From NCBI GenBank assembly GCA_027859085.1, contig JAQIBJ010000102.1:37366-101365 (forward strand): a stretch of 64,000 nucleotides of DNA, written 5' to 3'. Both the position numbers and the translations under genes were made by a program. Below the pieces are notes generated by a model, which was not told the origin of the DNA, ran no database searches, and worked only from the letters and a program-made list of their open reading frames with translations. The DNA comes from Mycoplasmatota bacterium (lineage in GTDB: Bacteria; Bacillota_I; Bacilli_A; Izemoplasmatales; Hujiaoplasmataceae). Position 1 is the stretch's first letter; each line of letters begins with the position of its first letter. Below, in pieces: positions 44,281-49,152 of this stretch.

Positions 44281-44338
44281 ATTTGAAATTGCTAATTTTC
44301 TTCAATAAACATGATATAATTAAAAAAAGAGGTGGATT

Positions 44339-46318
44339 ATGTATCGTAAAATAAGCGATAACATCTATTTGATATCAAAAGAAAATAATAACATCATTCA
44401 TTGTAATACTTATTTAATTGTAGACAAAGAAGAAGCAATACTTATCGAACCAGGTAATATTGCTGATTTTGAAGCTGTTTTTAGTGATATTAAATCTATT
44501 ATTAATCTATGCTTAATAAAATACATAATTATCAGTCATCCAGATCCTGATTTAACAGCTTCTTTACCTTTATTTGAAGAAGCATTAAATGACGTTCAAA
44601 TCATTACTGAGTGGCGCACTGCGGAAATTATTACTTTTTATAATTTAAAATCAAAATATTATTTAATCAAAGAAAACAATCATGAATTAAGACTAAAATC
44701 CGGAAGGGTATTAAGATTTATTCCCACACCATTCGCCCATTATTCAGGTTCATTTATTACTTATGATATGACTACTGAAATGTTATTTTCAGGAGATTTA
44801 TTTGGTGCGATATCAAAAAAATGGACGTTATATGCTGATGAATCATATGTTGAATCAATGGCTATATTCCATGAAAATTATATGCCTAGTAGTGATTTTA
44901 TTAGACCGATAATGAAAGATCTATTGGATTATAATATTAAGTATATTTTGCCTCAGCATGGTTCAGTTATTAAGAGTAACCTTGTCTCTAAAAGTATATT
45001 ATTCTTATATCATTTAGATTTTTATAACACACCTAGACGTATTGTTAATAAAAACAACACATCAACTGAAATTGATTTCTTATCTAGACTTGTCCAAATT
45101 GTGATCCGTCTAAATCAAGTTTTTTCAAGTGACGATATAAAAGAAACATTTATAGGGTCTCCTATTACAATGAATTTTGAACCTGTAAATATTACAAGTG
45201 CAATAAATGGTTATAAGTTATGGCATATGTTTTTTGATATCGTCTACGCTAAACGTGGTGATTACTGGTTAAACGCAGTCGAGACTTTGGTCAATCGTAT
45301 ATCTGAAACATATAATATTGATAAACCAAATATCTATGATTTAAGGTTAAGGAAATTAAAAGAACAAAATATAGAAATAACAACAAAATATTCTAATTTA
45401 GAAGAATCATTAAAACAAACCGCTGAAGCATTTAGTAAAACTAAAGATTTACTCACAAGATGCCCGATTACTGGTTTATACAACAAAGACATGGCCATCA
45501 GGTATTTAGAAGATCATTATGATGATTTAACCAATCATGGATATCTAATTAATATCGATATCGATCAAATTGTCCTTATTAATCATGAATATTCTAATAA
45601 AGTTGGCGATGATATGATTAATGTTTTAAAATATGTCATTAACAATAATTTAGAAGATGATGAATTATTGTTTAAAGGTAAAGGATCGAGTTTAATCTTA
45701 TTAAAACAAAAATCAAGTAATCCTCAAATTAAAAAAAGAGCTGAAGATATTCGAAATATAATTAGTAAGAGTGACCAGTTTATAGAAAAGGTATCTGTTA
45801 GTATGGGAATTGTTCGTTTAAAACCTGAAGAAATGGTGGCGCCTACGCAACAGATTAATGAATGGATGCATTTATTAGAATCTAGATTAGAATATGCTAA
45901 ATCACAAGGTGATGGTCAAATAATATTTGAAGGGCAAAAAGAGCTCATTTACTATAGAAATACAATTTTATTGGTTGATGAGGAACAAATTAACATTAAT
46001 TTAATTACAAAGTACTTCCAAGAACAAAGTTTTAAGGTCATCCACGCAATTAATCCAATGACGGCTTTAGAGGTATTAGAAAAACAAAAAGTTGATTTAA
46101 TTATATCTGAAATCAATTTATCTAAATTAGATGGTTTTTCTTTAAAGAAATCATTAAACGAGAAACCGTATTTTGCTAAACTACCGTTTATATTTCTTTC
46201 TCATATAAAAAATGAAACATTAATTGATCGAGCTAATCGATTAAATGTAAATTATTTTCTAAAGAAACCATTCTACATGAATGAGCTCATTGGGCTTGTG
46301 AAGCGGGCGATAAAATGA
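44339..46318 (+). CDS. Three-domain sensor: ODP-type MBL fold, degenerate GGDEF, degenerate receiver
   Basis: 659 aa, soluble. Residues ~1-215: metallo-beta-lactamase domain of the flavodiiron/ODP branch, with a di-metal site H67-x-D69-x-D71, H134 (HYSGSFITYD), D153 (LFSGDLFG) and H207 (PQHGS); ODP proteins bind di-iron and react with O2 or NO. Residues ~215-345 helical. ~375-525: GGDEF fold (CPITGLYNKDMA, NIDIDQIVLINHEYSNKVGDD, VSVSMGIV) but the active motif is GKGSS, so no cyclase activity. ~540-659: receiver domain (ILLVDEEQ, FLKKPF) with Glu591 where the phosphoacceptor Asp should be. Its stop overlaps the glycosyltransferase start (ATGA), so it most likely senses a gas or redox signal and controls that enzyme. 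Confidence 0.82.
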   Translation: MYRKISDNIYLISKENNNIIHCNTYLIVDKEEAILIEPGNIADFEAVFSDIKSIINLCLIKYIIISHPDPDLTASLPLFEEALNDVQIITEWRTAEIITFYNLKSKYYLIKENNHELRLKSGRVLRFIPTPFAHYSGSFITYDMTTEMLFSGDLFGAISKKWTLYADESYVESMAIFHENYMPSSDFIRPIMKDLLDYNIKYILPQHGSVIKSNLVSKSILFLYHLDFYNTPRRIVNKNNTSTEIDFLSRLVQIVIRLNQVFSSDDIKETFIGSPITMNFEPVNITSAINGYKLWHMFFDIVYAKRGDYWLNAVETLVNRISETYNIDKPNIYDLRLRKLKEQNIEITTKYSNLEESLKQTAEAFSKTKDLLTRCPITGLYNKDMAIRYLEDHYDDLTNHGYLINIDIDQIVLINHEYSNKVGDDMINVLKYVINNNLEDDELLFKGKGSSLILLKQKSSNPQIKKRAEDIRNIISKSDQFIEKVSVSMGIVRLKPEEMVAPTQQINEWMHLLESRLEYAKSQGDGQIIFEGQKELIYYRNTILLVDEEQININLITKYFQEQSFKVIHAINPMTALEVLEKQKVDLIISEINLSKLDGFSLKKSLNEKPYFAKLPFIFLSHIKNETLIDRANRLNVNYFLKKPFYMNELIGLVKRAIK

Positions 46319-49152
46319 TTGATTTGATTGTAACCCTTTTTATTATTAGTGGAATTATAATTACACTATTAATTATCGCTATTTTATTACAAAAACTATA
46401 TTTATTAAGATTAAAAAACACTGAACCTATTATAAGAAATCATGTGTTTAATAAATTAAATCATCTTCAAACAAAACCAATTCATTTCTCTGAAAAGCGT
46501 TTATTCCGTAGTCTTCAATTAATTGAAGATCAAATTCAGTTATCTGGAAAAGACAGAGAAATGTTATTAGAAGAAGTGTTCACAGATAAGTTTTTAAAGA
46601 AACTAAAAAAAAGCACTAGAAGTCCTTTTTCTTTTAAAAGGCTAATTAGTGCTTATCAATTAAGTTATTGTATTGACTCTACGAATACTTTGCAACATTT
46701 AATTAGAATTGAAAAAAATGATGTGGTTTTGTATTATTTATTCTATTTTTCGATTAAACACATGAATCAAGCAATATACAATGAGTTGATTGATAAATTA
46801 GATGATATCAATGATACTGTATTAAACAGATTTTCAGTTCTTTTTGTAAATCATTATGATATTTTTAAACGTTATCTTTCTCAGAGTTTAGAAGCAATCA
46901 GTTATCCAATGTTATTGATTCATTTAAAGGTTTCAATAAATCATTCGGATTTTCAATTACCAAAATCAGTTTATAATTATATCAAAACCTTAATTTTTAA
47001 AGATGAATTAACAGAAGAAGAACTGACTCTTAGAGATTTAGGTTTGTCATTAATGGTGAGAAGAGAAGATGATTTTCTTTTAACCACAGATGTATTGCGA
47101 CATCATTTATTATCGGTAAGAAAGCATGGATATCATTTATTAGCAAAGCTAAAAACCATGCGCAGTATTGATCAATTATTTGATGCTTTAAACAATGATG
47201 AAGAAAATAATCAAATCGTCATTCAATCGATTATTGATATATTGAGTGATGGTGCTATGTTTAATAAATTGTTTTTTTACTACAATAAGTTTCCTTCAGG
47301 GATTAAAAGAAGAATCCTTGCTAAAATTGTTTCTGAGCGCATTAATTATTTAATCTTAAGATTGAATTCTAAAGATGATGAAATGGCAAGAAAAAATATT
47401 GAATTAATCATTGAACAACGCTATCTTGCGGGTATTATTGCTTTTATCAATAATAATAATGATTTAAATCTAGAAAAAACCATCTTTGAATTATTAGAAC
47501 CCGTTCTAAAACGAGATCCAAAAGCAAGAGATGAATTTCGCATGTATGTAAATCCTAGAATTCTATCTAGCTATGGTTATGAACCATTAGTTGTGGTTCC
47601 AGAACCTAAAGAAAAACAACCAAAAGAGCTTTCCAAAGTGATTTGGCTTACGATCATGTTTGTTTTTGCAATCATTCTATATCCATTGCTGTCCGTCATC
47701 AACCAATGGTCTAATATTGGAAGTATATCTTTATTTGAATTTCTAAAGAATATGGTATTAGATACCAATAAAAACTTGATTTATTATTTCTTAATTGCTA
47801 ATTTTATCTATTTAATGTTATTGATTATCTCTTTAAGAGGAAGTTATAAACAAAATCAATTATGGCAGATTAAATCACAGACCATGCTTTATGAAACGAA
47901 ACTTTTACCAGCCATTTCTATTATTGCGCCAGCTTATAATGAAGAAGTAAACATTATCACTAGCGTTAAATCGTTATTAAACTTGAAATATCCTGAATAT
48001 GAAGTCGTTGTGGTGAACGATGGTTCTAAAGACCAAACCTTAAGAGCACTTATTGAATACTTTAAATTAAAAAGACATAATTTAAATATCTTACCATACC
48101 TTAAAACAAAAGAAATTAGGGGGGTATACATTAATCCTGAATATCCTAATTTAGTGGTTGTTAATAAAGCCAATGGTGGTAAAGCTGATGCTTTAAATGT
48201 TGGAATAAATGTAGCAAAATACCCATATATATGTGGGATAGATGCAGATAGTGTCTTAGAACAAGATGCATTATTAAGACTCATGTCTACAATTTTAGAC
48301 CATAAACATCAACCTGTTGCAATGGGTGGCAATATTGTTCCAGCTAATGGCTGTGTGATTGATCATGGTTATGTTGAAGAAAAACATTTTCCTAAAGAAT
48401 CTTTAACACGTTTTCAAGCATTAGAATACTTAAGAGCCTTTACAACCGGTCGAATTGGTTGGAGCGAAATGAAGAGTTTGTTAATTATATCAGGTGCTTT
48501 TGGCTTGTTCTATAAAAAAGACATCGTGAATATAGGTGGTTATATCACAAGTTCTGGAAAATTAAAAAAAGACAGTGTTGGTGAAGATATGGAATTAGTG
48601 GTTCGTTTAACCATTAATCGCATGAAACGGAATAAGAAACAATATATTGGCTACGTCTATCATGCGAATTGCTATACTGAATTGCCAAGTGATTTATCCA
48701 CACTCTTAAGTCAAAGAAATAGATGGCATCGTGGACTGATTGATATCTTAAGTTATCATCGAAAAGTATTATTAAATCCAAAATATAAACAAATTGGCTT
48801 AATTGCTACACCATATTTTTATATTTTTGAAGTATTGGGTCCATTCTTTGAATGGATTGGTTATTCAATGTTGGTGATTAGCCTAATATTAGGCTTTGCA
48901 GCACCAATGATTGTGATTGGCATCTTTGGATTATCGATTGCCCTCGGAATGGTCATATCATTATTTTCATTGTTAATTGAAGAATCTCAATCTACATTTT
49001 CCACAAGAAAAGAGTCTTTTTATCTCCTCTTGTATGCAATACTAGAGAATTTTGGTTACAGACAAATACTTTCTTTACATAGAATCTATTCATTCTTCAC
49101 CGCGTTATTTGAAAAAGGTAAATGGGGTGAACAAAAACGTAAAGGCATTTAA
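46315..49152 (+). CDS. Membrane glycosyltransferase family 2 with N-terminal helical-repeat domain
   Basis: 945 aa processive polysaccharide synthase-like protein. One helix at residues ~4-28, then ~400 residues of Leu-rich helical hairpins resembling HEAT repeats on the cytoplasmic side, helices near 445-465 and 485-505, and a GT-A catalytic domain from ~530: APAYNEEVNI, VVVNDGSKDQT, D-x-D as DADS (~642), SGAFGLFYKKD, GEDMELV (~755) and QRNRWHRG (~800), the QxxRW of cellulose, hyaluronan and PNAG synthases. Three or four C-terminal helices. It should make and export an exopolysaccharide; which sugar is unknown. No PilZ domain is evident, so control probably comes from the coupled sensor through the helical repeats (inference). 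Confidence 0.87.
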   Translation: MIDLIVTLFIISGIIITLLIIAILLQKLYLLRLKNTEPIIRNHVFNKLNHLQTKPIHFSEKRLFRSLQLIEDQIQLSGKDREMLLEEVFTDKFLKKLKKSTRSPFSFKRLISAYQLSYCIDSTNTLQHLIRIEKNDVVLYYLFYFSIKHMNQAIYNELIDKLDDINDTVLNRFSVLFVNHYDIFKRYLSQSLEAISYPMLLIHLKVSINHSDFQLPKSVYNYIKTLIFKDELTEEELTLRDLGLSLMVRREDDFLLTTDVLRHHLLSVRKHGYHLLAKLKTMRSIDQLFDALNNDEENNQIVIQSIIDILSDGAMFNKLFFYYNKFPSGIKRRILAKIVSERINYLILRLNSKDDEMARKNIELIIEQRYLAGIIAFINNNNDLNLEKTIFELLEPVLKRDPKARDEFRMYVNPRILSSYGYEPLVVVPEPKEKQPKELSKVIWLTIMFVFAIILYPLLSVINQWSNIGSISLFEFLKNMVLDTNKNLIYYFLIANFIYLMLLIISLRGSYKQNQLWQIKSQTMLYETKLLPAISIIAPAYNEEVNIITSVKSLLNLKYPEYEVVVVNDGSKDQTLRALIEYFKLKRHNLNILPYLKTKEIRGVYINPEYPNLVVVNKANGGKADALNVGINVAKYPYICGIDADSVLEQDALLRLMSTILDHKHQPVAMGGNIVPANGCVIDHGYVEEKHFPKESLTRFQALEYLRAFTTGRIGWSEMKSLLIISGAFGLFYKKDIVNIGGYITSSGKLKKDSVGEDMELVVRLTINRMKRNKKQYIGYVYHANCYTELPSDLSTLLSQRNRWHRGLIDILSYHRKVLLNPKYKQIGLIATPYFYIFEVLGPFFEWIGYSMLVISLILGFAAPMIVIGIFGLSIALGMVISLFSLLIEESQSTFSTRKESFYLLLYAILENFGYRQILSLHRIYSFFTALFEKGKWGEQKRKGI

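Follow-up and report, generated by a model that had tools for sequence, protein, structure and literature searches.

The window analysed here, a 64,000-nucleotide stretch of DNA from a Mycoplasmatota genome of 1.7 Mb, carries on its plus strand two overlapping genes that appear to form a dedicated module controlling a processive, membrane-bound polysaccharide synthase. The first encodes a soluble regulator of 659 residues (44339..46318, +), in which an ODP domain, a helical middle region, a degenerate GGDEF domain and a degenerate receiver domain (REC) follow one another. The second encodes a synthase of 945 residues (46315..49152, +), consisting of an N-terminal transmembrane (TM) helix, a HEAT array, a TM pair, a processive GT2 domain and further TM helices. 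In the reading we favor, with a probability of about 0.55, this two-gene module would work independently of c-di-GMP, being gated by the ODP domain where its metal site survives and acting on the synthase by contact through the dead domains.

The strongest result of the analysis is the linkage of the two genes. Conserved pairing had been set beforehand as a test, with unlinked genes counting against the idea, and both co-occurrence and adjacency proved essentially complete. Of 392 genomes drawn evenly from the window's phylum, 15 have both proteins, always side by side, and none has just one of them. The apparent lone HEAT match in one genome (G350) was rejected, as its alignment is confined to the TM portion of the profile. 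A first survey of 61 genomes, comprising the window's own and its relatives, found the regulator preceding the synthase wherever the contig permits. Public genomes yielded 69 HEAT-GT2 loci, with the regulator upstream in all 65 that have readable upstream DNA (directly upstream in 61; cut, frameshifted or mis-called in 4), while the remaining 4 begin at or near a contig edge. These 65 loci span Bacillota, Spirochaetota and a Fibrobacteria MAG. Among 247 genomes of the Sphaerochaeta phylum, 8 contain HEAT-GT2, and the regulator is adjacent in 7; in the eighth, both genes terminate at contig edges. The pair is thus conserved across Izemoplasma-like Mollicutes, Clostridia and Spirochaetota, with hosts including Acetobacterium, Parasporobacterium, Fusibacter, Anaerobium, Trichococcus, Sphaerochaeta, Rectinema and Treponema-type MAGs. 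Chance cannot account for linkage of this completeness. Note that a Tepidanaerobacteraceae MAG (L150:641-3471) has HEAT and GT2 as separate ORFs, and that no regulator is visible there, the locus lying at a contig edge.

The four-base overlap between the ODP-GGDEF-receiver gene and the GT2 synthase gene, reported in the preliminary description, is present as an ATGA stop/start at 46315..46318 (+). Of 61 homologous loci paired automatically, 31 have the same overlap (gap -4). Much longer overlaps proposed by the ORF caller (gaps of -1330, -376 and -128 nt) were rejected and read as in-frame upstream extensions. Upstream of the regulator, a TATAAT (44315-44320) and a ribosome-binding-like GAGGTGG (44329-44335) can be read from the sequence (44315..44335, +), and the pair looks like a transcription unit of its own after RNase J. 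In the neighborhoods read, no third partner gene was found, other neighbors not being conserved, and neither conserved export or modification genes beside the synthase nor a histidine kinase gene linked to the pair were present. Some Acholeplasmataceae encode an extra GGDEF protein directly downstream of the pair (L086:8778-9722, L089:8772-9704, L091:8796-9701 and L093:6476-7423).

Pfam recognized three domains in the regulator: ODP (PF19583, E 4e-60), GGDEF (E 5e-13) and Response_reg (E 6e-18). The ODP domain, of metallo-beta-lactamase fold (residues 20-208; 44396..44962, +), scored 203 bits against a curated PF19583 cut-off of 27.2 and thus belongs to the ODP family. In structure comparison its closest fold match was 6qwo, and the top matches were the T. 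maritima and T. denticola ODP proteins, among them the peroxy-diiron form 6r9n. Taking the reference ligands from the PDB chain sequences of these two proteins, we found all six (H67, D69, D71, H134, D153 and H207) to match the solved chains 6qrq/6qwo and 6qnm/6r9n. The resulting pattern, HxDxD...H...D...H, is unlike the HxExDH of flavodiiron enzymes. The window's genome also encodes a second ODP/flavodiiron-like protein of 417 residues (L002, G000:C66:2966-3553), which is probably an FprA-type enzyme.

The helical middle region (residues 226-340; 45014..45358, +) falls into no Pfam family, a scan of residues 248-374, which include part of it, giving no match, and it is present in most homologues. 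A long helix defined by AlphaFold and DSSP (residues 331-373; 45329..45457, +) may serve as a signaling helix into the GGDEF domain (residues 376-525; 45464..45913, +), which is followed by the receiver (residues 543-654; 45965..46300, +). In the AlphaFold model of the regulator (pLDDT 86.6) the domains are individually well predicted, while their mutual arrangement is not (pTM 0.41).

The preliminary description had assumed an intact di-metal site, and had named non-conservation of its ligands as an observation that would speak against the proposed gating. For the window protein the assumption stands; for the family it holds only in part. Of 75 pairs, a count in which some genomes entered under two locus ids, 30 have all six ligands, 33 have lost them, and 12 lack the domain altogether. 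Ligands or domain are therefore missing in 45 of 75 pairs (about 60%), so that metal sensing is not the universal function of the regulator. On a quick, midpoint-rooted synthase tree of 62 dereplicated rows, at least 5 changes, counted without regard to direction, separate intact from not-intact sites. Two members of the window's own genus lack the ligands and still have the pair, and the pair survives in two Izemoplasma-type genera and some spirochaetes in which the ODP domain is missing. By sequence, metal function is thus lineage-specific, and it is probably old, because intact sites occur on either side of the midpoint root. The obligate unit is the dead GGDEF-REC together with HEAT-GT2, with the ODP domain as an optional input.

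Two further observations concern the ODP domain. A 245-residue gene upstream of ODP-less regulators was considered as a detached ODP domain and rejected, since on reading the sequence it looks like a glycerophosphodiester phosphodiesterase and not like ODP. Genome G002 contains a decayed ODP regulator copy with 25 stops (L084:5238-6729, -) beside decayed copies of RNase J and glutamine synthetase; no synthase remnant was found, and a metal-less pair is carried elsewhere in the genome. This copy could reflect real decay or an assembly problem.

The repeated loss of ligands or of the whole domain, while GGDEF-REC and HEAT-GT2 are always kept, is also what would be expected if the synthase could not do without the regulator as a scaffold or assembly subunit, acting via GGDEF-REC, with an ODP domain that is a relic or structural element and senses nothing. 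The degraded, ligand-less ODP folds retained in many lineages fit such a role. However, the presence of all six ligands in lineages as distant as Acetobacterium, Fusibacter, Sphaerochaeta and the window clade needs selection for metal binding there. Moreover, both genes are under purifying selection relative to genome G001, the window's ODP domain included, and the low dN/dS of this domain (dN 0.15, dS 1.7) argues against a relic. We therefore regard a purely structural role as unlikely, though it is the most serious of the alternatives.

The GGDEF domain was described in advance as dead, and the homologues bear this out. Its signature reads KGKGS in the window, and none of 81 partner GGDEF domains carries GG[DE][DE]F, which excludes them from the active diguanylate cyclases. 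Degenerate GGDEF domains can nevertheless serve as receptors: PelD (Pel), BcsE (cellulose) and PssE (Listeria) are degenerate GGDEF receptors of exopolysaccharide systems (PMC8461298, PMC4125290). Like the window's regulator, they are encoded together with an exopolysaccharide synthase, which they are needed to switch on. A regulator that activates its synthase upon binding c-di-GMP would have this precedent (PMC8461298, PMC4125290) as well as a likely supply of the nucleotide: at least four of the ~15 GGDEF proteins in the window's genome have an intact signature, and c-di-GMP is therefore probably made in the host. In contrast to PelD and PssE, which bind c-di-GMP through an RxxD I-site, the window protein lacks this motif and only 2 of 81 homologues have it, placing the regulator outside the PelD/PssE-type receptors. 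In addition, the first metal (Mg-binding) Asp is kept in only 6 of 81 domains, whereas the neighboring Asp is kept in 80 of 81. The ODP domain offers the regulator an input that PelD, BcsE and PssE do not have. A c-di-GMP receptor thus seems improbable, and c-di-GMP has no conserved site in the regulator-synthase pair. PilZ was not found in 34 genomes (the window's own and related ones), although it occurs in some other hosts of the pair. Together, the absence of an active GGDEF domain, of the I-site and of PilZ supports the earlier proposal of control independent of c-di-GMP.

The receiver likewise proved to be dead, as anticipated. Its phospho-acceptor position is occupied by E591, and Glu is found there in 74 of 85 homologues, so that these domains do not qualify as phosphorylatable receivers. 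The consistency of the Glu points to a conserved replacement and not to random decay. Among classified regulators with an ODP fold, the window's included, Glu replaces the acceptor Asp in 61 of 63. The acceptor Asp was observed in 8 of 12 ODP-less regulators, compared to 1 of the 63 with an ODP fold, and the ODP-less regulators that have Asp mostly carry Val in place of the conserved Ser/Thr. Asp in ODP-less regulators possibly reflects an exchange of inputs, but the independent events are few and Val often stands at the Ser/Thr position. That a histidine kinase still regulates the receiver, the ODP part being accessory, is very unlikely: these Asp-bearing ODP-less forms and the separate phosphorylatable REC genes found ahead of HEAT and GT2 genes in a number of other phyla would favor it, but the near-invariant Glu of the ODP-fold regulators, the Val at the conserved Ser/Thr and the absence of a linked kinase gene stand against it.

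The synthase begins with a TM helix predicted by hydropathy (residues 1-34; 46315..46416, +). It is followed by a HEAT-type alpha-solenoid (residues 60-420; 46492..47574, +), TM helices ahead of the catalytic domain (residues 437-519; 47623..47871, +), the GT2 catalytic domain with ND, DxD, GED and QRNRW motifs (residues 534-815; 47914..48759, +) and C-terminal TM helices (residues 831-892; 48805..48990, +). Pfam matched the GT2 domain to PF00535 (E 1.8e-22). D569, D643 and D645 are kept in 103 of 103 homologues and QxxRW is near-invariant; with the D, DxD, (G)ED and QxxRW motifs and the TM helices, the protein is a processive GT2 synthase. The fold is of the hyaluronan/cellulose synthase type, with hyaluronan synthase as the best solved match. 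A score of 103.9 bits against a cut-off of 422.3 for the TIGR03937 equivalog sets it apart from the PgaC/IcaA poly-N-acetylglucosamine synthases.

No PilZ domain was detected in the synthase by Pfam, which separates it from the BcsA-type c-di-GMP-activated class. The preliminary description had proposed HEAT-like repeats in its place. The window sequence alone falls below the Pfam HEAT cut-off, but homologues match HEAT_2 (E 1e-14 to 1e-8), and AlphaFold confidently predicts a succession of ~24 helices across residues 60-420. By homology and predicted solenoid, the repeats are HEAT. They are probably cytoplasmic, since positive residues come after the N-terminal TM helix. The window synthase thus shares GT2 motifs, TM layout and fold with the PgaC/IcaA, hyaluronan and BcsA-type synthases, but differs from them by an N-terminal HEAT array of ~360 residues, predicted to be cytoplasmic, and by the lack of PilZ.

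How might the regulator act on this enzyme? By analogy to the ODP of spirochaete chemotaxis, the ODP domain would bind a di-iron site and report O2 or the Fe(II)/redox state. The signal would travel through the middle region and along the long helix to the dead GGDEF and receiver domains, whose change in conformation would be read out by protein interaction with the neighboring HEAT-GT2 synthase at its cytoplasmic face. GGDEF-REC contact would then switch polymer synthesis. Gating by the iron/O2 state of the ODP would operate only where the metal site survives. Accordingly worded, the O2/NO/redox gating of exopolysaccharide synthesis proposed beforehand is, given the characterized ODP sensors, a good guess for the 30 of 75 pairs with an intact site and, as a mechanism of part of the family at most, does not extend to all of it.

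Evolutionary rates point to GGDEF-REC as the output and contact part of the regulator. Between the window and G001, the receiver, the slowest-evolving regulator domain (dN 0.058), resembles the GT2 catalytic domain (0.063), both being slower than ODP, GGDEF and HEAT. In a mirror-tree comparison, itself weak evidence for physical contact, GGDEF-REC distances gave a partial correlation of 0.60 with the catalytic core and of 0.16 with HEAT, the latter above all 500 permutations but small, with HEAT near saturation at 15-20% identity. The HEAT array, earlier put forward as the docking surface, received no specific support, as it persists without ODP and the regulator co-diverges more with the catalytic core. 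It is a plausible dock, not favored by the co-divergence test.

Elsewhere, these elements occur as separate genes. In relatives from Bacteroidota, Balneolota, Neomarinimicrobiota, Elusimicrobia, Chloroflexi and Actinomycetota, a gene of its own for HEAT immediately precedes the GT2 gene, and in the first three phyla it is itself immediately preceded by a free receiver with the phospho-Asp. Neighboring stand-alone genes for REC (phospho-Asp kept), HEAT and GT2 are seen, for example, at L157:4000-6888, L160:4325-7377, L164:4573-7515 and L159:4534-7443. The clusters of Bacteroidota, Balneolota and Neomarinimicrobiota, which we did not find described, have the three elements adjacent, as in the window, and a synthase core 41-45% identical, but HEAT has its own gene, the receiver is free and keeps its phospho-Asp, and ODP and GGDEF are lacking. 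By sequence they look like an unfused relative of the module. The separate HEAT-GT2 genes in six other phyla indicate that HEAT is an old companion of the GT2 core, and a receiver beside HEAT-GT2 is a recurrent theme.

The ODP domain, too, has other settings. In T. denticola, ODP senses O2 for chemotaxis, and deleting it alters CheA ordering (PMC7666581). The stand-alone ODPs of T. denticola and T. maritima (PF19583) act as O2 sensors on a signaling partner and share with the window domain the fold and all six ligand positions; they are single domains beside a chemoreceptor, whereas the window ODP forms one protein with dead GGDEF and REC domains and is encoded next to a polysaccharide synthase. 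In spirochaetes, an intact-looking ODP is fused to a SpoIIE-type phosphatase and TPRs (L182:902-3004, -; L183:1609-3678, +), and in another protein to an adenylate/guanylate cyclase catalytic domain (L184:1078-2709, +), the ODP motif being visible in all SpoIIE- and cyclase-fused spirochaete proteins. From these fusions, ODP is a re-used sensor module.

In the open literature searched, we found no description of the regulator-synthase pair. Its component parts are known; the combination, its breadth and its apparent independence of c-di-GMP were not found described. More tentatively, the pair may represent a widespread, undescribed form of exopolysaccharide control in anaerobes: a di-iron O2/redox sensor would gate the synthase by direct contact, bypassing both c-di-GMP and phosphorylation, with exchangeable inputs and a dead relay that is kept. 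Accounts of how synthase-type exopolysaccharides are controlled usually center on c-di-GMP. The pair, phylogenetically broad, nearly inseparable and devoid of a conserved c-di-GMP site, lends itself to a clean test of control by protein contact, with the natural losses of the ODP site as built-in controls. Pairs with an intact site predict a direct switch from oxygen or iron to polymer in anaerobes, and ODP would be a general sensor module beyond the chemotaxis case.
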